Source: Rheinheimera pacifica
GTDB lineage: Bacteria > Pseudomonadota > Gammaproteobacteria > Enterobacterales > Alteromonadaceae
DNA: 64,000 nucleotides
NCBI RefSeq assembly: GCF_900108485.1
Contig: NZ_FNXF01000005.1
Location: forward strand, 1 to 64,000
Direction of reading: 5' to 3'
Positions 1-9,700 of this stretch are shown here, piece by piece. Under the pieces are notes generated by a model. It did no database searches. It worked only from the letters and a program-made list of their open reading frames with translations, and was not told where the DNA came from. Within the stretch, counting starts at the first letter, position 1; each line of letters begins with the position of its first letter. A program made the position numbers and the translations under genes.

Positions 1-166
1 TGAGGCCTAAATTGTTAAAGCGGATAACCAAATCACTGATGGTTGCCCGGCCAATATTTAAAGCCTGAGAGATTTGCCTGTCGCTTAGTCTGGCCTCAAA
101 TTTAAGACGGAATATATCCAGATAAGTTTGCATATCTGTCCTTACCATTTTCTTTTTACGTGTCAT
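1..166 (-). CDS. istA: IS21-family transposase IstA, N-terminal fragment (cut by window edge)
   Basis: Reading leftward from an ATG at 166, an open frame of 55 codons runs off the window edge without a stop. It begins MTRKKKMVRTDMQTYLDIFR and contains a helix-turn-helix of the kind that opens IS21 transposases (LSDRQISQALNIGRATISDL, about residues 29-48). A GGAG Shine-Dalgarno sits six bases before the ATG. IstA is the DDE transposase that works with the AAA+ helper IstB. The catalytic domain and istB, if present, lie outside the window. The identification rests on the HTH region plus the typical terminal repeats just upstream, so I am fairly but not fully sure. Confidence 0.72.
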   Translation of the reverse strand, partial: MTRKKKMVRTDMQTYLDIFRLKFEARLSDRQISQALNIGRATISDLVIRFNNLGL

Positions 167-230
167 GACTACTCCGGCAAACAGTTAAAAAACTGTTATG
201 CCAAAGTCCGTAAAACGAAGGAAGAACAAA

Positions 231-342
231 CTGGCCGGACGATACCGAAACAGGTGGCCGGATAAGGCCGAAATCAGTGGCCGGATGATACCGAAATGGG
301 TGGCCGACTCATGCCGAAATCGCTGGCCGGATCATCCCGAAA
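231..342. repeat. Five 20-bp repeats with exact 23-bp period (IS21 terminal repeats)
   Basis: Units start at 231, 254, 277, 300 and 323. Each follows TGGCCGG..(6-7 bases)..CCGAAA, for example GTGGCCGGATGATACCGAAA at 277-296. IS21-family ends carry multiple repeats that bind the transposase, so this is the likely role here. The repeats also create a meaningless plus-strand open frame. Confidence 0.8.
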
Positions 343-378
343 TACGCATCATTGGCACACGATCTGCGAAAAGACATC

Positions 379-452
379 AAGGAACTTTGTTTGTCTCAGC
401 ACAGATGAATTCCAATAAAGAGCGCCGACTTTGTCGATCAGACTTGTTAAAT
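379..452 (-). other. Degenerate attC site of the last cassette (74 bp)
   Basis: On the minus strand the R'' box ATTTAAC (446-452) overlaps the TAA stop of the DUF4393 gene and is the exact complement of GTTAAAT, the first bases of the same cassette (1253-1259). A possible inner stem GTCT/AGAC and a final GTT (383-385) fit a 74-bp attC, but the outer box would be GTTCCTT, off the GTTRRRY consensus. The outer half is therefore uncertain. Insertion of the IS about 30 bp further on may have removed the next cassette. Confidence 0.45.
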
Positions 453-1238
453 GCTATACCTTCCGACACACGAATCGACAAAGCCTCGGCCAAAGCCTGT
501 AAAGCTATATTGCCCGCTTTTATAAGAAACTCTATCTAGTTGCGAATTTACACTGCATATTTCTTTTACTTTCTCTGATAAGAAAATTCTTTCATGCTCT
601 TCCTTTGGGAAAGAAGTACCTGATGTTGGAGTTAGCAGGCCCAACCGTTTTAAGTTGGAGAAATACATAACCGAGTTTTCGGGGTTATCGCAATCAGCGT
701 CTTCACAGATTAGGTTTACTTCCGCTGTAGTTGATGTGATTCCAAAGTTACTATCCTCCGAATCTTGTTGGACTATATCAATCGTTGGTGCATGACCTTT
801 TCTATGCTTTTCTTTATTAAACATAAACCGAAGGATCCTAGCTTCATCCGGCTGGAGCTGCTTGATTATTTCGATGTACGCCGGATGAGCAATCCCCGAA
901 GTTTTCTTGTCTAGGCTTGCCGATATTAGATTTGAAAAAAGGCGCTGTATTTCATCTTCATTTATTGCAAATCTGGCCTCATTCAGAGCCTGAAGAGCAA
1001 CCCTTGGTCGATCGAATGAAATTTGCTCAGGTGCTAATAATGCCAGATTCTCAGCAGTCATCCGCAAGACGCTTGTGACCGCGTGAACGCTATCTTCTAC
1101 AAGGAAAATTCCCGAATTTACCATTCTGGCAATGGAGACTAATCCCTTTGATAATTCTTTAGAAAAAGGGCTCAGAGCATCTTCATAAACCGGAATAGCG
1201 AGCTTTTCGGCTATCGCTTTCACGCTCTCATCTATCAT
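447..1238 (-). CDS. DUF4393 (Abi-alpha-like) domain protein in an integron cassette
   Basis: The product is about 263 residues from MIDESVKAIAEK and resembles the DUF4393 / Abi_alpha family, a group linked by annotation to abortive infection. The N-terminal half is helical and the C-terminus ends in the FGRGFVDSC motif typical of the family's final segment. There is no signal peptide. I chose the ATG at 1238, five bases after GGAG; a second ATG at 1241 is only two bases away from it. The gene fills one cassette: it starts 15 bases after the cassette boundary and its TAA lies inside the attC R'' box. Its biological target is unknown. A role in phage defence is inference from the family name and the Abi_C gene beside it. 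Confidence 0.65.
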   Translation of the reverse strand: MIDESVKAIAEKLAIPVYEDALSPFSKELSKGLVSIARMVNSGIFLVEDSVHAVTSVLRMTAENLALLAPEQISFDRPRVALQALNEARFAINEDEIQRLFSNLISASLDKKTSGIAHPAYIEIIKQLQPDEARILRFMFNKEKHRKGHAPTIDIVQQDSEDSNFGITSTTAEVNLICEDADCDNPENSVMYFSNLKRLGLLTPTSGTSFPKEEHERIFLSEKVKEICSVNSQLDRVSYKSGQYSFTGFGRGFVDSCVGRYSI

Positions 1239-1252
1239 CATGTCTCCAGTGC

Positions 1253-1324
1253 ATTTAACGCACGCAGTACCGGGCAATTTGGAGCGCAGCGGAAAATTAA
1301 TCCGTTTGCTTGCTTTTGTTATAC
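1253..1324 (-). other. attC recombination site (72 bp) between two abi-type cassettes
   Basis: On the minus strand the site opens with GTATAAC (1318-1324) and closes with GCGTTAAAT (R' GTTAAAT, 1253-1259, fits GTTRRRY). Inner arms GCAAGCA and TGCGTGC pair at six of seven positions. GTATAAC matches the complement of the first bases of its own cassette (GTTATAA) at six of seven positions, as a cassette excised as a circle requires. Confidence 0.65.
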
Positions 1325-1331
1325 AAAATCT

Positions 1332-2165
1332 CTACCGCATTCTCTTTATACAGTCTTGAATGTACCTAAAAACGGTATACATTGCATTAACAATGGCGGT
1401 TGCTTCAGGGACATCTAGCAAGTCATTCACATGTGCGAGGCTCGCCTTATTTCTAAGCGTAGAAAAGGCGTCAATTGACGCGGCAAAAGAATTAAGAACT
1501 CTGGTAACTTCATCAGCCCTATGACCTGACGCTTGTAATGCCGGATGAAACTGTCGAAGTTGTTTGAACGCTTTTGATGCCGTAGGGTCGTTGGGTAGAT
1601 CAATTTGATTGTCGATACAAAGTTGCACCAAATATCCATGGAGAGCAGTATGAGCACGATCAATTGCGCTTGACGAATCCACCGTGCCGATTAATGCCTT
1701 CGCGTCTCCCAAAGCCCTCATCACCGAAGTCGAAATAGATTCACTGAATTCTGGCGCAGCAACACTGCCTGCTGTTTGAGTGAGCTGATCATCAACAATT
1801 TGATAATGGTCTTGGTTCTTAAGCAGAATCTGATTGATATTTTGTACTGTTGGTACAGTAGCGCCACTATGCTCCAGTTCCTCTAAAGCCTCATAGACAG
1901 CAGCTATAAAATTCGGAGCATCCTTTGCCGCATTTTGAGCCTGACTGGACATGTCAGACTCAGCCCAGTCAATAGAAGAACTGCGGGCGTAATAATCACC
2001 AGAAACTTTGCAAAAGTGTTGTTTAAATACTTCTATTATTCCTTGCCGACTCATTCCCCCTGATACTCTTCTTATCAATGAAATAAAATCATCTACAGAC
2101 TGTTCACTGAGTGGAGTCGTTGATCCCATGGGAAATCTAAGTTCACTTGCCATTTGAAGCGGCAT
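1332..2165 (-). CDS. Abortive infection family protein (Abi_C domain) in an integron cassette
   Basis: The protein has 277 residues from the ATG at 2165, which follows GGGGAG by six bases. The C-terminal 110 residues carry the Abi_C pattern: an AIDRAHTALHGYL helix near residue 168, then LRNKASLAH near residue 240 and a final helix. This region occurs in proteins grouped as abortive-infection phage-resistance factors. The N-terminal half (STTPLSEQSVDDFISLIRR) is a helical region I do not recognise. No enzyme motif is visible, so the mechanism cannot be stated. The gene lies alone between two attC-type sites, in the same orientation as its neighbours, with its TAG eight bases before the attC. 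Confidence 0.7.
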   Translation of the reverse strand: MPLQMASELRFPMGSTTPLSEQSVDDFISLIRRVSGGMSRQGIIEVFKQHFCKVSGDYYARSSSIDWAESDMSSQAQNAAKDAPNFIAAVYEALEELEHSGATVPTVQNINQILLKNQDHYQIVDDQLTQTAGSVAAPEFSESISTSVMRALGDAKALIGTVDSSSAIDRAHTALHGYLVQLCIDNQIDLPNDPTASKAFKQLRQFHPALQASGHRADEVTRVLNSFAASIDAFSTLRNKASLAHVNDLLDVPEATAIVNAMYTVFRYIQDCIKRMR

Positions 2166-2182
2166 CAATTGCTCCCCATTTT

Positions 2183-2288
2183 TTATAACGCATTGCTAGT
2201 AGGCTGCTACAGCGCAGCGTACACAGTCCCGTGGAGGGCACGTTGTGTGTGGCAGGAATTAAATTAAGCAACTTGCCAAGCATTAGTG
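2183..2288 (-). other. Degenerate attC-like site (106 bp)
   Basis: On the minus strand the site runs from a weak R'' (CACTAAT, covering the TAA stop of the 120-residue gene) to GCGTTATAA (R' at 2183-2189). The middle contains an imperfect hairpin with ACACA/TGTGT and GTGCCC/GGGAC arms. Only four of seven R'' bases match the expected GCCTAAC, so this site may be poorly active. Position and spacing are those of a cassette boundary. Confidence 0.5.
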
Positions 2289-2645
2289 TTTATTACCTGA
2301 ACTAGCGGGAGGTTTATTAAGTGGACGAATTTCGACAGCAACATCCTCAAGATCCTCTGGAGGATAACCAGAAAAAAACGAAGAAATACCACGAGTTTTT
2401 GCTTGGTGGTAATTTGCCTGGACGTCTGGTCGATACTGAACAATCTGCTCTTCATCTAGCAAAAGTTCGCGTTCTACCTCGATTACTTCCCAAGCGTAAT
2501 CCATAAGGTATGAAAGCGCTTTAATTTCGGCGGCACCCCGCGATGATTCAAAGACCCAAATATCTGCGTGAGCACCACCAACTTTACCGTATTCAGGAGA
2601 GCCTTTTGTTGGCTTTACGTGGTAAACAAAAACGTATACTTCCAT
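2283..2645 (-). CDS. Uncharacterised 120-residue cassette protein
   Basis: The gene has a strong ribosome site (AGGAGG, five bases before the ATG at 2645) 14 bases inside the cassette boundary. The product begins MEVYVFVYHVKPTKGSPEYG and has mixed alpha/beta character, an acidic middle (ERELLLDEEQ) and a proline-rich end. There is no signal peptide, membrane segment or metal motif. I do not recognise a family. Its position between two attC sites supports it being a real cassette gene rather than a chance frame. Confidence 0.6.
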   Translation of the reverse strand: MEVYVFVYHVKPTKGSPEYGKVGGAHADIWVFESSRGAAEIKALSYLMDYAWEVIEVERELLLDEEQIVQYRPDVQANYHQAKTRGISSFFSGYPPEDLEDVAVEIRPLNKPPASSGNKH

Positions 2646-2658
2646 GTTTCCTCCTGAT

Positions 2659-2733
2659 GCCTAACGCTCGCCATAAACGGCGCGAGGAACGAGCGTCCGA
2701 CCGTAGGGAGCGAATTTAATGGTTTTGTTAGCT
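2659..2733 (-). other. attC recombination site (75 bp), best preserved of the array
   Basis: On the minus strand the site runs from AGCTAAC (2727-2733) to GTTAGGC (2659-2665, fits GTTRRRY). Inner arms CGCTC and GAGCG pair. AGCTAAC is the exact complement of GTTAGCT at the start of its own cassette (3102-3108). The TAA stop of the upstream gene lies inside AGCTAAC, a common feature of cassette genes. Confidence 0.75.
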
Positions 2734-3084
2734 CTTGACTCGAATACGGCCTTTCTCATCTTCAACGCCGTGCTTACCTTTAGGAATAGCAACCATGCGG
2801 CCGTCACGGCCTTCCAAACCATGTCCTCCGGGGGAGATTCCGACCATTCTCCCGTCACGGCCTTGAAGACCATGCCCACCTTTAGGTATGTAAGCCATAC
2901 GACCATCGCGCCCCTCTAAGCCATGACCACCGGCTCGAATAGCCACCATTCTTCCATCTCGGCCTTGCAAGCCATGACCACCTTTTGGGATTGCGACCAT
3001 ATGACCATCACGTCCCTGAAGGCCGTGACCACCATCAGGAATGGTTACTGCCTTTCCATCCCTGCCTGTAAGTTTATGTGGCAT
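2728..3084 (-). CDS. Small repeat protein: six 17-residue GRDGRMVAIPKGGHGLQ-type units
   Basis: The 118-residue product is almost only repeat. After MPHK, residues 5-106 are six units of 17 residues with the pattern L-x-GRDG-x-M-V-x-I-x-x-GGHG, followed by a degenerate tail VEDEKGRIRVKS. Glycine, basic residues and a fixed histidine dominate each unit. No signal peptide is visible. I do not recognise the family; a beta-hairpin or solenoid fold is a guess from the regular G-R-D-G turn and I-P strand. The ATG follows AGAGGA, and the stop overlaps the attC site. It is the first cassette of the array as seen in this window. Confidence 0.65.
   Translation of the reverse strand: MPHKLTGRDGKAVTIPDGGHGLQGRDGHMVAIPKGGHGLQGRDGRMVAIRAGGHGLEGRDGRMAYIPKGGHGLQGRDGRMVGISPGGHGLEGRDGRMVAIPKGKHGVEDEKGRIRVKS
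2767..3072 (-). repeat. Six in-frame 51-bp tandem repeats
   Basis: These encode the six 17-residue units of the repeat protein. Units differ at many third positions but keep the amino-acid pattern, so selection on the protein rather than recent DNA duplication explains most of the similarity. Confidence 0.8.
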
Positions 3085-3108
3085 AAATTTGTCCTCTGTG
3101 GAGCTAAC

Positions 3109-3628
3109 AATTTAATAGAAGGCTTTGTGCCCGCAAGTAGAAATTTTTTCTGCCACCTTTCATGATTTTTACTAATACCAAATTAACGTTGATGTACCTC
3201 TAATTCAATAAATTTTTCTGAAATGAGTAAACTTTTGAATCCGACAAAATTTATACAGGTAGTACGCTAATTGTTCTTAAATTTACTCAAGCGATATATC
3301 TGGCAATTTAACCAGTAGTTGGAGTTAATAAATGAAGTAATTAGCGAAGGTTTGTCACCATGAGGGATGTCAGGTTTTAGCACTTAGCCACCAGCCAGGC
3401 AAAGGGATCTCGGGTAGCCAGCTTGAAATTAATAACACCTATATGACACCTTTCGACAAGCTATCAGCAGATACTGAGGCTTCTTTCTAAAATGGCTTTA
3501 AGAGCAGGTATATCAGCTTGCGGCTGATAATGAGCAGCTCAAAAGCATCTAGTTCAGCATAATCACATTTTCTGAAAAGAAAAATTTTTCTTTAGCATTT
3601 CATCACTCGAGCGAGATTGGAGTTTTGA
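3109..3628. other. 520-bp AT-rich gap, no gene or integrase found
   Basis: This stretch lies beyond the first cassette boundary (AGCTAAC on plus, 3102-3108), where an attI site and a divergent intI gene would be expected in a complete integron. I see no open frame of note on either strand and no clear attC or attI. Only the perfect palindrome near its right end stands out. Confidence 0.6.
3576..3593. promoter_or_regulatory. Perfect 18-bp palindrome upstream of the PrtN-like gene
   Basis: AAAGAAAAATTTTTCTTT is a perfect inverted repeat centred 44 bp before the start codon at 3629. It could be an operator. It is also simple A/T sequence, so chance or DNA bending is possible. Confidence 0.35.
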
Positions 3629-4108
3629 ATGAGGCTAAGCAGTACCGCCCAACTACTGGTGAAACAGTTTGACGGCTATCTAAACCTGGATGCAGGAGTT
3701 GTTGCGACGAAATTTTTCGGCGTGGCACTGAAAACAGCGCGTGCAATACCGGAATTCAGGACGCTGGTTAATAGCCAACTAACTATCAATGTCGCGGATC
3801 TGGCCAACCTTATTGATGCTAACCGCAGATTAAAACTGAGAGATGACGATATGAACGCACAACAAATACTTGAATTTGGACTGATGACAGAACACGGTAC
3901 AGCCGTAATACCACTGGAAGTGGTATCAGATAAATACCTGAACATGAGCCACAAATCGGCCCAGGCAAAATTCAATACCGGCGAGCTAAAACGGTTGGGA
4001 CTGAACGCATTCCGGCTTAATACCTCACAAAAAGCTCCTATTTTGGTTTTGGTAACCGATCTGGCTGAGTTTGTGCTTACCCGCAGAAAGATCACCATCG
4101 CCGCTTAG
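3629..4108 (+). CDS. PrtN-like (pyocin activator family) regulator, 159 residues
   Basis: The C-terminal 70 residues (TAVIPLEVVSDKYLNMSHKS ... SQKAPILVLVTDLAEFV) match the pattern of the PrtN pyocin-activator family, small DNA-binding activators of phage-derived genes. The N-terminal 85 residues (helical, with NSQLTINVADLANLIDANRR) are an extension I do not recognise. The ATG follows GGAG. No phage structural or pyocin genes are next to it, so its target is not visible and it may be a remnant of a prophage or an accessory regulator. The identification is moderate because it rests on the C-terminal pattern only. Confidence 0.55.
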   Translation: MRLSSTAQLLVKQFDGYLNLDAGVVATKFFGVALKTARAIPEFRTLVNSQLTINVADLANLIDANRRLKLRDDDMNAQQILEFGLMTEHGTAVIPLEVVSDKYLNMSHKSAQAKFNTGELKRLGLNAFRLNTSQKAPILVLVTDLAEFVLTRRKITIAA

Positions 4109-4810
4109 AACGCCACTGGCGTGGTTTCCCATGCCCCCACTCACTTGTATCTATACTCTCAATGCCTGACAAGTTCGGGCATTCTCCATTTGCCATAGCC
4201 AAGCACATTGCCAACGGCTGAATGTCTCAGTAAGCTTGCCTCTGCATGCTCAATTATGCACAAATCTTCCCCCTGCTAAGTCTGATAAAAACATAAAGGC
4301 CATCACGAGGATGGCCTTTATAAGAGACTTTACTTTGCCTGATTTATCCGTATATTGCTTTATTGCTACAAGCGTGGGGGACTGAACCACCACAAAATTG
4401 CGCACCAGATTACCTATAAATCTTTATAAAACAATAACCTGCCTTAAGCCACCTCTCCAGTCCAGCATAGGGGCAATCGAAAAGCGATGATCGAGGGCAA
4501 GCTGGCCAACACCGGCGCCAATACTCGATTTTACCGGGTTTTGATTAGCTTGTTTTTCAGTCATTTTCCGCTATTTCCAGTCATTTATTAATTGCACCTG
4601 CCCCATATCTCTATACAGTTAAAGGACATCAAGGTGAAGCGCTAGTATACCGCGTATCACGGACCTTTGGCAGCCTGCCCGACAGTAAGCGTTGCTATAA
4701 CGCTCGAAATTGGGCGTCAAATTCAGCACTTGCCTAACGGATTGCGACTGCCGGGCTTTGGTCCGGGTTTATGCATACCCTTCTTCCGCGAAAAAACTCA
4801 ATCACAAATC
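4109..4810. other. 700-bp gap without a supported gene
   Basis: No convincing open frame occurs on either strand. An 11-bp perfect stem with a 5-base loop (TAAAGGCCATC / GATGGCCTTTA, 4294-4320) is present but lacks a T-tract in either direction, so it is at most a weak terminator for the PrtN-like gene. The rest looks like decayed sequence between accessory and regulatory regions. Confidence 0.5.
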
Positions 4811-4834
4811 GTGACCATATCTCAAAATGGTTAC
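4811..4834. promoter_or_regulatory. Predicted TetR operator upstream of tetR
   Basis: Arms GTGACCA (4811-4817) and TGGTTAC (4828-4834) are separated by ten bases and end three bases before the -35 element. The same arms and spacing recur at 5556-5579 in front of the efflux genes. Two copies in the two intergenic regions of this cluster make it the likely binding site of the encoded regulator. Confidence 0.65.
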
Positions 4835-4837
4835 TCG

Positions 4838-4866
4838 TTGTCAATCTTTTATGCAGAGGATACACT
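4838..4866 (+). promoter_or_regulatory. Predicted sigma-70 promoter of tetR
   Basis: TTGTCA (4838-4843), a 17-base spacer and TACACT (4861-4866) form a good sigma-70-type promoter 40 bp before the chosen start codon. It is directly downstream of the predicted operator. Confidence 0.6.
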
Positions 4867-4905
4867 ATTGGCTATCAGTTTAATTACTACAGACAGCATG
4901 ACGTT

Positions 4906-5547
4906 ATGGGTAACGAAATGAGTAACGGAACGAGCAACGAAAATACCTATCCTGTATCAAGCCGGGGACCGGCCGACCACGATGTGCGGGATCAAATTCT
5001 GCATGCGGCTACAGAGCATTTCAGCCAGTATGGTTATGTAAAAACTACGGTTTCTGATCTGGCCAAAGCTATTGGTTTTTCAAAAGCCTATATCTATAAG
5101 TTCTTCCCTTCTAAACAGGTTATTGGCGAGATGATCTGTGCCAACTGCCTGCGTGAAATCGAAGCTGAGGTACGTGCAGCTATTGATGAAGCAGAGCGAC
5201 CGCCGGAAAAACTGCGGCGAATGTTCAAAGCGATTGTTGAAGCCAGCGTTCGCTTATTTTTCCGCGATCAGAAGCTGTATGAGATTGCCGCCTCCGCGGC
5301 GTCTGAACGTTGGCAAGCTGCACTTGCTTACGAGGAGCGCATGCAGCAGTTACTGCAGGATGTGTTGCAGCAAGGTCGGTTAAGCGGAGATTTTGAGCGT
5401 AAAACCCCGCTTGATGAAACGGTTATGGCTATTTATCTGGTGATAAGACCTTATCTTAATCCACTGCTATTGCAACACAGTTTTGATCATGCCAGTGATG
5501 CATCTGCGCAGTTATCCAGTTTGGTACTGCGCAGCCTTTCACCATAA
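4906..5547 (+). CDS. TetR-family repressor of the adjacent RND efflux genes
   Basis: The product has about 213 residues from the ATG at 4906; upstream in-frame codons lie inside the predicted operator and promoter, so a longer form is unlikely. An ATG at 4918 is an alternative. The N-terminal HTH (ILHAATEHFSQYGYVKTTVS ... AKAIGFSKAYIYKFFPSK) is classical TetR. The C-terminal ligand domain is divergent. The gene precedes the adaptor-pump pair in the same direction, and a shared inverted repeat lies before each transcription unit. This fits a ligand-released repressor of itself and the pump. The ligand cannot be read from the sequence. Confidence 0.85.
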   Translation: MGNEMSNGTSNENTYPVSSRGPADHDVRDQILHAATEHFSQYGYVKTTVSDLAKAIGFSKAYIYKFFPSKQVIGEMICANCLREIEAEVRAAIDEAERPPEKLRRMFKAIVEASVRLFFRDQKLYEIAASAASERWQAALAYEERMQQLLQDVLQQGRLSGDFERKTPLDETVMAIYLVIRPYLNPLLLQHSFDHASDASAQLSSLVLRSLSP

Positions 5548-5555
5548 ATTTTACA

Positions 5556-5579
5556 GTGACCATTGACTAATTTGGTCAC
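5556..5579. promoter_or_regulatory. Predicted TetR operator over the efflux promoter
   Basis: GTGACCA (5556-5562), ten bases, TGGTCAC (5573-5579) is a perfect 7-bp inverted repeat. It encloses a -35-like TTGACT (5563-5568), with a -10-like TAAAAA 16 bases on. A repressor bound here would block the promoter of the adaptor-pump pair. The arms match the site before tetR at 13 of 14 positions. Confidence 0.65.
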
Positions 5580-5625
5580 ATGAATAAAAATAACTCCCCT
5601 GATCCAGTCGTCAAGGGGGCTTTAT

Positions 5626-6756
5626 ATGTATCGGCGTTACCTCGTTTCACTTACTGTTTTATCTGCGTTGCCACTGGTATTGCTTGGCTGTGGTGAAACA
5701 TCCCCGGCCGATCCGCGCCTTGCTGCGCCACTGGTGCGTACTGTTATTGTTGAGGAAGCATCGGCCGGGTCCCGGACATTTAGCGGTGTTGTCGCCGCAC
5801 GGGTGCAAAGTGACCTTGGCTTTCGTGTCTCCGGCAAGGTGCTGGAGCGGTTAGTGGATACCGGCCAAACCGTCAAACGCGGTCAGCCACTGCTGCGTAT
5901 TGACCCTGTCGACTTGCAACTCGCCGCGCTGGCTCAGCAGCAAGCAGTAGCGGCCGCACGGGCACAAGCCATGCAGGCCGCAGCAGATGAAGTCCGTTAT
6001 CGTGGCCTGCGCGGAACCGGCGCAATATCCGACTCGTCCTACGATCAGGCTAAAGCCGCGTCCGATGCCGCTCAGGCACAACTCAGTGCCGCCGAAGCTC
6101 AGGCTAAAGTGGCACTGAACGCCACTGCCTATACCGACTTAGTCGCTGATGCCGATGGCGTAGTGATGGAAACCCTGGCTGAGCCGGGGCAGGTTGTTAA
6201 TGCCGGCCAGACTGTAGTACGGCTGGCCCATGCTGGCTCCCGTGAGGCTATTATCCGCTTACCGGAAACCCTGCGACCTGTACCGGGTTCTGCCGCCCAC
6301 GCCACGCTGTTCGGTAATGGTGGCCACAGCGTGGCGGCCACCCTGCGGCAACTGTCTGACGTCGCCGATCCGTTAACCCGTACCTTCGAGGCACGATATG
6401 TGCTGCAGGGTGCACCGGCTGACATCCCGCTGGGTACCACCGTTAGTATCCGGCTGGCAGATGAGCATGGCTCCCAACCCAATGATGTTGCCAATGGTGT
6501 AGTGCAGGTGCCAATCGGTGCGCTGTTTGACGCTGGCAAGGGTGCTGGCGTATGGGCTGTTAGTGGCGAACCGGCCACGGTTTCATGGCGACCGGTACAG
6601 GTGCAACATCTGACTGATGACAGCGCGCGTATCAGCGGGCAACTGCAGCCCGGCGAGCTTATCGTTGCACTTGGTGCCCACTTGCTGCGCGAAGGCGAGC
6701 AGGTCCGGCTGGCGCATCAGACGGTAACAACTGCGGTCAAAGGAGCTCAGCCATGA
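5626..6756 (+). CDS. RND efflux periplasmic adaptor lipoprotein (MFP family)
   Basis: The 376-residue product has a lipoprotein signal (LVLLG before Cys22), so it should be anchored to the periplasmic face of the inner membrane or the outer membrane. It shows the membrane-fusion layout: a first biotinyl/lipoyl-like half (GFRVSGKVLERLVDTGQTVK), an alanine/glutamine-rich alpha-hairpin (about residues 95-160), a second lipoyl half (ADGVVMETLAEPGQVVNAGQ), then beta-barrel and membrane-proximal domains. It links the pump to an outer-membrane channel. The stop overlaps the start of the pump gene (ATGA), so the two are translationally coupled. Confidence 0.92.
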   Translation: MYRRYLVSLTVLSALPLVLLGCGETSPADPRLAAPLVRTVIVEEASAGSRTFSGVVAARVQSDLGFRVSGKVLERLVDTGQTVKRGQPLLRIDPVDLQLAALAQQQAVAAARAQAMQAAADEVRYRGLRGTGAISDSSYDQAKAASDAAQAQLSAAEAQAKVALNATAYTDLVADADGVVMETLAEPGQVVNAGQTVVRLAHAGSREAIIRLPETLRPVPGSAAHATLFGNGGHSVAATLRQLSDVADPLTRTFEARYVLQGAPADIPLGTTVSIRLADEHGSQPNDVANGVVQVPIGALFDAGKGAGVWAVSGEPATVSWRPVQVQHLTDDSARISGQLQPGELIVALGAHLLREGEQVRLAHQTVTTAVKGAQP

Positions 6757-9700
6757 GTGAAGGCCGTTTTAATCTCTCTGCAATAGCGGTACGTGAGCGT
6801 GCTGTTACCTTGTTTTTGATCGTGCTGATCTCGTTGGCAGGCATCATTGCCTTTTCTAAATTGGGGCGGGCCGAAGATCCGGCCTTTACCATTAAGGTCA
6901 TGACCATTATCACTGCCTGGCCCGGGGCTACAGCGCAGGAGATGCAGGACCAGGTAGCAGAAAAGCTCGAAAAACGCATGCAGGAACTGCGCTGGTATGA
7001 CCGTACAGAAACCTACACCAGACCGGGTTTAGCTTTCACAACATTGACCTTGCTCGATACGACACCGCCTGCTGAAGTGCAGCAGGAGTTCTATCAGGCC
7101 CGCAAAAAAATCAGTGATGAGGCCGCTAACCTGCCCTCCGGCGTGATCGGCCCTATGGTCAACGACGAATACGCCGACGTGACCTTTGCCCTGTTTGCGC
7201 TGAAAGCCAAAGGCGAACCGCAGCGTTTGCTGGTGCGCGAGGCTGAGACGCTGCGCCAGCGGCTGCTGCACGTACCCGGCGTCAAGAAGGTCAACATCGT
7301 CGGTGAACAGGCCGAACGCATTTATATTGAGTTCTCGCATGAACGTCTGGCCACGCTGGGTGTTAGCCCGCAGCAGGTATTCGCCGCACTGAATAACCAA
7401 AATGCCCTGACACCGGCAGGCTCGGTGGAAACCAGAGGACCGGAGGTGTTTATCCGGCTGGATGGCGCCTTTGACGAATTGCAGAACATTCGCGATACAC
7501 CGGTGATGGCGCAAGGCCGCAGCCTGAAATTATCAGACATTGCTACGGTCACGCGCGGCTATGAAGACCCGGCAACCTTTATGGTACGTAATGGCGGCGA
7601 GCCGGCCCTGCTGCTGGGCATTATTATGCGCGACGGTTGGAATGGACTCGATCTCGGTAAGGCACTGGGCAGCGAGGTTGCTGCGATTAACAGCGAACTG
7701 CCGCTGGGCATGAGCCTGAGCAAGGTTACGGATCAGGCGGTCAATATCAGTTCGGCGGTCGATGAGTTTATGGTTAAGTTTTTTGTCGCCTTACTGGTCG
7801 TGATGCTGGTGTGCTTCGTTAGTATGGGCTGGCGCGTGGGCGTAGTGGTTGCCGCCGCAGTGCCACTCACCCTGGCGATAGTGTTTATGCTGATGCTTGC
7901 GAGTGGCAAGAACTTCGACCGCATTACCCTGGGGTCGTTGATCCTGGCACTGGGTTTATTGGTAGACGATGCCATCATCGCCATTGAAATGATGGTGGTA
8001 AAAATGGAAGAAGGCTACAGCCGCATTGCCGCTTCGGCCTATGCCTGGAGCCATACCGCAGCGCCGATGTTATCGGGCACGCTGATCACGGCTGTTGGTT
8101 TTATGCCCAATGGCTTCGCCCGCTCCTCCGCCGGTGAATACACCAGCAATATGTTTTGGATCGTAGGTATTGCGCTAACGGCATCCTGGCTGGTGGCTGT
8201 GGTATTTACGCCTTACCTGGGTGTAAAAATGCTGCCCGACTTCAAAAAAGTTGCCGGCGGTCATGACACTATCTATAACACCGCGCACTATAACCGCTTT
8301 CGCAAACTGCTGGGACTTGTCATCTCGCGCAAATGGCTGGTCGCAGGTGCAGTGATAGGCTTGTTCGTGCTGTCAGTCATAGGCATGGCAGTGGTTAAGA
8401 AGCAATTCTTCCCGATATCCGACCGCCCGGAAGTGCTGGTTGAGTTGCAAATGCCCTACGGCAGCGCCATTACGCAAACCAGTGCCGCCACAGAGAAAGT
8501 GGAGGTCTGGCTGGCGCAACAAGCGGAAGCCAAAATTGTTACCGCTTATGTTGGCCAGGGCGCGCCCCGTTTCTTCTTCTCAGTCGGTCCTGAACTGCCG
8601 GATCCGTCCTTTGCGAAAATAGTGGTACGCACTGACAACCAGCATGAACGTGAGGCACTAAAACACCGGCTACGGCAAGCTATCGCTGACGGGCTCGCCT
8701 CTGAGGCACAGGTACGCGTCACCCAGCTGGTATTTGGCCCTTATTCGCCGTTTCCGGTGGCTTACCGGGTTAGCGGCCCGGATCCTGATACGTTGCGCAG
8801 TATCGCAGCAGAGGTGGAGCAGGTGATGGCGGCCAGCCCGATGATGCGCACAGTTAATACCGACTGGGGCAGCCGCACGCCTACGCTGCATTTCACGTTG
8901 GATCAGGACAGATTACAGGCCGTCGGCCTCACCTCCAGCGCAGTAGCGCAGCAACTGCAATTCTTGTTAAGTGGTGTACCGGTTACTACTGTGCGTGAAG
9001 ATATTCGCACCGTACAGGTGGTCGCGCGCTCAGCCGGCGACACCCGGCTCGATCCGGCCAGAATTGCCGATTTCACCCTGGCGGGTGCCGACGGCCAGCG
9101 TATCCCGCTGGCACAAGTGGGAGAGGTTAAGGTGCGGATGGAAGAGCCTGTTATGCGCCGGCGCGATCGCATGCCAACCATCACAGTGCGCGGCGACATC
9201 GCCGAAGACTTACAGCCGCCGGATGTATCTACCGCTATTACTGTGCAGTTGCAGTCGATTATACAGGCGCTGCCCAAGGGCTATCACATTGCAGAAGCAG
9301 GTTCTATTGAAGAATCCGGCAAGGCGATGACAGCAATGCTGCCCATCTTCCCTATTATGCTGGCCATTACCTTACTGATCATCATTTTGCAGGTGCGTTC
9401 TATCCCGGCAATGATCATGGTATTTCTGACCAGTCCTTTGGGCTTGATTGGTGTGGTGCCAATACTGCTGTTATTCCAGCAGCCATTTGGCATTAATGCA
9501 CTGGTGGGTTTAATTGCGCTGTCCGGCATCCTGATGCGCAATACGCTGATCCTGATTGGCCAAATAGACCACAATCAACAGGCTGGGCTGGCCCCGTTCC
9601 ACGCCGTGGTCGAGGCTACTGTGCAGCGGGCACGGCCGGTTATCTTAACGGCGCTGGCCGCTATTCTGGCGTTCATCCCGCTCACTTATTCCGTGTTTTG

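Follow-up and report, generated by a model that had tools for sequence, protein, structure and literature searches.

Organization of the cassette array

The window, the whole stretch of DNA that was analysed, covers 64 kb at the start of a 268-kb contig from Rheinheimera pacifica, the genome of which is a 4.46-Mb draft in 46 contigs. Near the contig end, four minus-strand genes, encoding a 118-residue repeat protein, a 120-residue protein, Abi_C, and Abi_alpha, read away from an attI-like site (Table 1). The segment 447–2165, to which the first-pass annotation had assigned two abortive-infection-type genes in neighbouring cassettes, is indeed filled by two minus-strand ORFs in the ORF list of the window. 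The protein of cassette 1 is built of repeat units of the form GHGLxGRDGRMVxIPKG, each encoded by 51 nt, and has no Pfam match above the cut-off. The protein of cassette 2 has no match up to an E-value of 1 in Pfam, PADLOC, NCBIfam, or PHROGs. The element at positions 1–344, which we take to be an insertion-sequence-like end, cuts the attC behind Abi_alpha, as read from the sequence. An Rfam search of window positions 1–6000 returned a single sub-threshold, chance-like match.

Table 1. Coordinates of the array features in the window.
Feature	Position	Strand	Basis
attI-like site, integrase end of the array	3104–3138	-	88–91% identity over 33–35 nt to congener sites
Cassette 1: 118-aa protein with 17-residue tandem repeats	2728–3084	-	ORF; 51-nt direct repeats
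attC of cassette 1	2659–2733	-	Model R1, 18.7 bits
Cassette 2: 120-aa protein	2283–2645	-	ORF
Probable attC of cassette 2, degenerate left box	2183–2290	-	Sequence reading; model gives only 5.9 bits, at 2183–2201
Cassette 3: Abi_C protein, 277 aa	1332–2165	-	PF14355, E 4.3e-14
attC of the Abi_C cassette, dividing Abi_C from Abi_alpha	1253–1324	-	Model R1, 15.0 bits; homologous sites elsewhere
Cassette 4: Abi_alpha/DUF4393 protein, 264 aa	447–1241	-	PF14337, E 3.8e-39
Truncated attC of the Abi_alpha cassette, stop codon inside left box	345–452	-	Sequence reading; not found by the model
Insertion-sequence-like end at the contig end	1–344	-	Start of a transposase-like HTH frame; 23-nt repeats

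Model R1 was built from 11 attC sites, all located on another contig of the same genome, and its stem was drawn by hand after the general attC anatomy; the drawn stem holds in 81.8% of cells, compared with 25–41% when it is slid. In an unfiltered search of the first 6 kb, the attC sites of cassette 1 and of the Abi_C cassette have E-values of 0.0012 and 0.013, respectively, which become 0.027 and 0.31 in a larger filtered search, and neither is among the matches listed from the whole-genome search (E-value up to 1). The dividing site is weak by score, and its identification therefore rests mainly on the comparison with Marinimicrobium alkaliphilum and Halomonas salinarum, where a homologous attC follows the same Abi_C gene with 35.2 and 20.9 bits, respectively; this comparison bears out the assignment of the two genes to neighbouring cassettes. 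In a metagenome-assembled genome of Desulfoluna, attC sites are present on both sides of the Abi_C gene. The boundaries at about 2183–2290 and at 452–345 are not found by model R1 and were read from the sequence. The Abi_C gene is followed by an attC on the same strand, and Abi_alpha only by the truncated site read from the sequence.

The whole-genome search has at least 44 attC sites among the matches listed, and 52 model attC sites occur in 14 stretches, 13 of them around listed sites and one being the model's own array. The contigs with these stretches are 17, 45, 12, 16, 31, 10, 7, 40, 46, and 14.

Integrase, attI-like site, and expression

The array is without an integrase of its own, and no remnant of an integron integrase was found at window positions 1–8000 (best tblastn E-value 0.44). 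An integron integrase above the family cut-off is present in 28 of the 31 genomes of the genus, this genome being counted among the 31. Here, it is represented by fragments: the best match is broken up, interrupted by an internal gap and a stop codon, and two further fragments exist; because the assembly is a draft of 46 contigs, an intact copy could be missed. The 52 attC sites are spread over many contigs, whereas the genome has only integrase fragments. On contig 24, at positions 2301–4303 of the extracted locus, an integrase fragment is accompanied, as judged by eye, by a GIY-YIG-like ORF and by a putative nuclease-like ORF and its neighbour.

Two congeners have an integron integrase gene that starts near the attI-like site and points away from the cassettes, one of these genes being intact and the other broken, and two further congeners have the site without a nearby integrase ORF. 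Several congeners carry the site or its flank (window positions 3104–3332) next to cassette-like genes, in surroundings that lack an integrase ORF. It is as if arrays had been copied, or the integrase lost, repeatedly. Promoters usually act near the attI site, and the cassettes with the Abi genes lie near the attI-like end of this chromosomal array. A promoter search of positions 200–3700 detected no sigma-70-like site on the minus strand.

Abi_C protein and its R-x6-H motif

The Abi_C domain named by the first-pass annotation was recovered in the Pfam search, in which PF14355 covers residues 202–271 of the 278-residue ORF with 52.8 bits against a cut-off of 24. The AbiJ model of PADLOC matches residues 114–272 weakly (E-value 1.5e-5), and the ATG start codon of the gene is conserved in relatives. 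The C-terminal domain contains the segment RNKASLAH (R238 to H245), which forms an R-x6-H motif. The arginine and histidine, with six residues between them, are invariant in all 23 aligned Abi_C domains, nine of which belong to the clade of the window protein (the protein itself and eight close relatives), while the other 14 are only 15–22% identical to it. Two sub-cut-off Abi_C matches were excluded from the count, and a frame-shifted Desulfoluna copy outside the alignment also has the motif, which makes 24 of 24 when it is included. The residue following the arginine is asparagine, threonine, or serine; the window protein reads R238-N-x5-H245. The earlier statement that no known enzyme motif is present does not hold for this protein.

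The active site of HEPN RNases is Rx4-6H, typically with a polar residue after the arginine, and Ex3[KR] is given for many HEPN families, not all (PMC3710099). The Ex3[KR] motif is missing from the Abi_C clade of the window and present in other Abi_C members. AbiJ is a HEPN family with varied, exchangeable N-terminal domains that may sense phage; its HEPN domain often occurs with one of AbiJ-NTD1-5, solos exist, and HEPN domains are common as toxins (PMC3710099). A relative from Comamonas combines AbiJ_NTD5 and Abi_C in one protein, with the motif present. In a published survey, pfam14355 and HEPN are separate entries of the toxin-antitoxin block, so that the survey, as far as this table goes, did not treat Abi_C as HEPN (PMC8649781). 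Structure prediction, proposed by the first-pass annotation for both proteins, gave a confident model of Abi_C at residues ~21–125. The C-terminal half, where helices are predicted, has pLDDT values mostly below 50 because the alignment of eight close relatives is too shallow. No HEPN chain is among the six PDB matches listed from the Abi_C profile search, and no HEPN entry is among the listed fold matches. Judged by the motif, which is observed directly, the C-terminal domain is probably a HEPN-type RNase toxin, its activity and its fold both being predicted.

Residues ~16–135 form a helical domain that matches no Pfam family in a scan of 138 residues, AbiJ_NTD5 included, although Pfam may not cover all five AbiJ-NTDs. 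The domain recurs with 34–36% identity in three plasmid proteins, two from Sinorhizobium and one from Acetobacter, which have a different C-terminal part without an Abi_C match, and it could be a phage sensor. An RSSSxxWAESD-like motif characterises the domain, and two of the plasmid proteins lie at positions 3001–3846 and 2938–3795 of their loci. Both Sinorhizobium proteins adjoin AbiE-type genes, and the Acetobacter protein adjoins a TIGR02391/Ymh protein. The best fold matches of the N-terminal domain are death-fold proteins, headed by the CARD entry 9frr_B with a Z-score of 4.7 (rmsd 4.8, 88 aligned residues), in a range, below about 13, that can reflect a common helical arrangement. CARD is absent from the profile search with this domain, and a Z-score of 4.7 is too weak to claim a CARD-like fold. 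We regard as very unlikely the broader idea that the domain is an undescribed, portable module for sensing, perhaps an adaptor of the death-fold (CARD-like) type, which would switch on the HEPN RNase and would have spread as an integron cassette across Gammaproteobacteria and Desulfobacterota. If true, it would make Abi_C a one-gene bacterial relative of inflammasome logic.

Seven relatives with 74–93% identity to Abi_C were found in Marinimicrobium, Rheinheimera, Halomonas, three Psychrobacter, and Desulfoluna. A model attC follows the gene in Marinimicrobium, Halomonas, and Desulfoluna (three of seven), and no model attC was found at the gene in the other four (three Psychrobacter and R. soli). 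The Psychrobacter copies lie beside a presumed guaA-like gene, and that of R. soli beside presumed restriction-type genes. The dN/dS ratio is 0.06–0.09 in the six of seven comparisons with finite dS, and 0.08 relative to Marinimicrobium, the sole comparison without dS saturation; these low ratios reflect strong purifying selection on the Abi_C lineage. The protein was not found in phage records at an E-value of 1e-5 or in the 30 other genomes of the genus, and single-sequence queries found no close relatives of Abi_C or Abi_alpha in viral contigs.

Abi_alpha protein

The Pfam search confirmed Abi_alpha as a DUF4393/Abi-alpha-type protein, with PF14337 matching residues 75–270 of the 276-residue ORF (135.2 bits against a cut-off of 29). 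The protein also matches the PADLOC candidate PDC-S47 (E-value 1e-35), on which we found no literature, and PHROG 2232 (E-value 2.5e-29). PF14337 is common among phages and prophages, with 69 loci in viral contigs and members in 70 phage records, 55 of them from Staphylococcus. No attC was found around any of the 69 viral loci (18 searched at E-values up to 1 and 51 up to 0.1). Abi_alpha itself is present in none of 40 relatives, 24 of which belong to the genus. Abi_alpha, a family known chiefly from prophages, is also found in cassettes, here and at three other places. These are the Marinimicrobium array, genome G370 of the order (a partial profile match with attC on both sides), and a Pseudoalteromonas plasmid, where an attC lies directly behind the gene (18.3 bits) and an annotated integron integrase is ~3 kb away.

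The AlphaFold2 model of Abi_alpha, computed from an alignment that retained 25 of the 69 viral loci, has a pLDDT of 83 and a pTM of 0.80, and shows helices at the N-terminus and a core that resembles PDB 3h35. This structure is the best fold match (residues 73–259, Z-score 11.5, rmsd 6.3 Å, 142 aligned residues) and also the best profile match (E-value 0.031). Z-scores to MarR/ArsR winged helices are ~5–6, which can reflect a common arrangement. A putative membrane helix is moderately hydrophobic (best 19-residue Kyte-Doolittle mean 1.28). We rejected Abi_alpha as a transmembrane protein because hydropathy is too low in most members, only two of 26 exceeding 1.6.

The Enterococcus faecalis prophage gene ef2833, named Abi-alpha, aborts infection with lysis about ten minutes early, and its authors obtained no resistant phage mutants (PMC6356687). 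By family membership, Abi_alpha is most likely an early-lysis protein. The E. faecalis protein is a distant relative with a mechanism that is itself unsettled, which counts against this reading. The description of both genes as having no known mechanism was nevertheless too broad, given the HEPN motif in Abi_C and the premature-lysis phenotype reported for this relative.

Distribution of the two genes

In a census of 394 genomes of the order, with the same genomes in both family searches, PF14337 is present in 13 (one sub-cut-off match, excluded from the alignments, is counted here) and PF14355 in 17, and both occur together only in the genome analysed here. Chance alone would give 0.6 joint occurrences, compared with the one observed; when this genome, which was chosen for having both, is excluded, none is observed and ~0.5 is expected. 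As the expected overlap is only ~0.5–0.6, a weak association would have escaped the census, which within this low power lends no support to a functional pairing of Abi_C and Abi_alpha, nor to the earlier suggestion that they could work together.

Among the seven genomes with a close Abi_C, PF14337 is present in Marinimicrobium and absent from the other six. In M. alkaliphilum, the 93%-identical Abi_C and the PF14337 gene are cassettes of a single array and are separated by two ORFs. Its Abi_alpha is diverged, being 18% identical in our alignment of the family (A3) and giving no blastp match at an E-value of 0.01. This array is the only hint of repeated co-storage. It spans positions 4830–8544 of its locus and contains seven model attC sites, with Abi_C first and Abi_alpha further down, and sits behind what we take to be a DEAD-box-helicase-like gene. 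In the window, Abi_C and Abi_alpha each look like a separate late acquisition.

Proposed roles and alternative explanations

The explanation we favour, and consider somewhat probable, is that the locus stores two unrelated one-gene abortive-infection cassettes, a HEPN-type RNase and an early-lysis protein, which need not interact. Its observed basis is the two family assignments, the conserved attC between the genes, their largely separate distribution, the invariant R-x6-H motif, and the purifying selection on Abi_C. In Abi_C, the N-terminal domain would restrain an RNase toxin and may sense phage infection; the C-terminal domain would then cut cellular or phage RNA, and growth would stop. 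Abi_alpha, by analogy with its E. faecalis relative, may trigger premature lysis of infected cells, with virions still immature, probably through a disturbance of the membrane or of the holin clock of the phage. It may act through its N-terminal helical hairpin, with the winged-helix-like core behind it.

The genes could instead be silent relics of a decayed integron that do nothing in this strain, which we think unlikely. The broken best integrase match with its two further fragments, the absence of any integrase trace at the array and of a promoter-like site, and the last attC cut by the insertion-sequence-like end would all fit such decay. Both reading frames are intact, however, purifying selection on the Abi_C lineage is strong, and the cassettes are close to the attI-like site, in the region from which promoters usually act; a draft in 46 contigs may also hold an intact integrase elsewhere. 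It is rather improbable that the two proteins are toxins of the toxin-antitoxin type kept for stabilising the array, with phage defence as a secondary effect. Toxin-antitoxin cassettes are frequent in large integrons, which counts for this idea. HEPN domains are common toxins (PMC3710099), and pfam14355 stands in the toxin-antitoxin block of the survey table (PMC8649781), but neither cassette contains an ORF of at least 50 residues outside the two genes, and an Abi_alpha relative has an experimental role in defence (PMC6356687).

A single two-protein system, with one protein as the sensor and the other as the killer and with the cassettes retained as a pair, is highly unlikely. The genes are adjacent here and the M. 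alkaliphilum array holds both families, but the two ORFs between its cassettes and its diverged Abi_alpha argue against a conserved pair, as do the lack of PF14337 in six of the seven genomes with a close Abi_C and, at low power, the single joint occurrence in the census. In addition, the E. faecalis Abi_alpha worked as a single gene (PMC6356687). The two cassettes are thus better described as independent defence genes, at the somewhat probable level given above.

Comparison with known systems

Defence genes in integron cassettes have reportedly been described by Darracq 2025, Kieffer 2025, and Getz 2025. A Xanthomonas survey assigns 20 orthologous cassette genes (1.8%) to phage defence, abortive-infection systems among them (PMC12444791), in line with the first-pass remark that cassette arrays can store such genes. 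Their presence in cassettes is therefore already known, and the present pair fits the published pattern. Our literature search, with few subscription papers within reach, found no title on DUF4393 or Abi_C cassettes. Beside the 52 attC sites of this genome lie 42 cassette ORFs; a PADLOC scan for other defence cassettes covered 19 of these and, in addition, one cassette gene located at the end of a contig. The scan gave weak matches only, to HTH regulator models in one protein (best E-value 1.1e-8), PDC-S31 in a second (1.8e-5), and Avs1c in a third (3.4e-4). The locus provides concrete examples of two defence families carried by integron cassettes, one of them with a predicted active site, and the N-terminal domain of Abi_C, which has no Pfam match and recurs in other plasmid-borne proteins, could be a phage sensor.

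Like AbiJ-type HEPN proteins, Abi_C has an invariant R-x6-H motif in its C-terminal part and an N-terminal accessory domain; unlike them, its N-terminal domain has no Pfam match, and its clade is missing Ex3[KR]. PDB 3h35 (ABO_0056), an uncharacterised protein, resembles the C-terminal part of Abi_alpha only. Abi_alpha shares PF14337, the single-gene organization, and a similar length (264 versus 272 residues) with ef2833 of E. faecalis prophage 6. It differs from this prophage gene in its location in an integron cassette. In common with the published integron defence cassettes, the locus stores small defence genes, abortive-infection systems among them, as cassettes.
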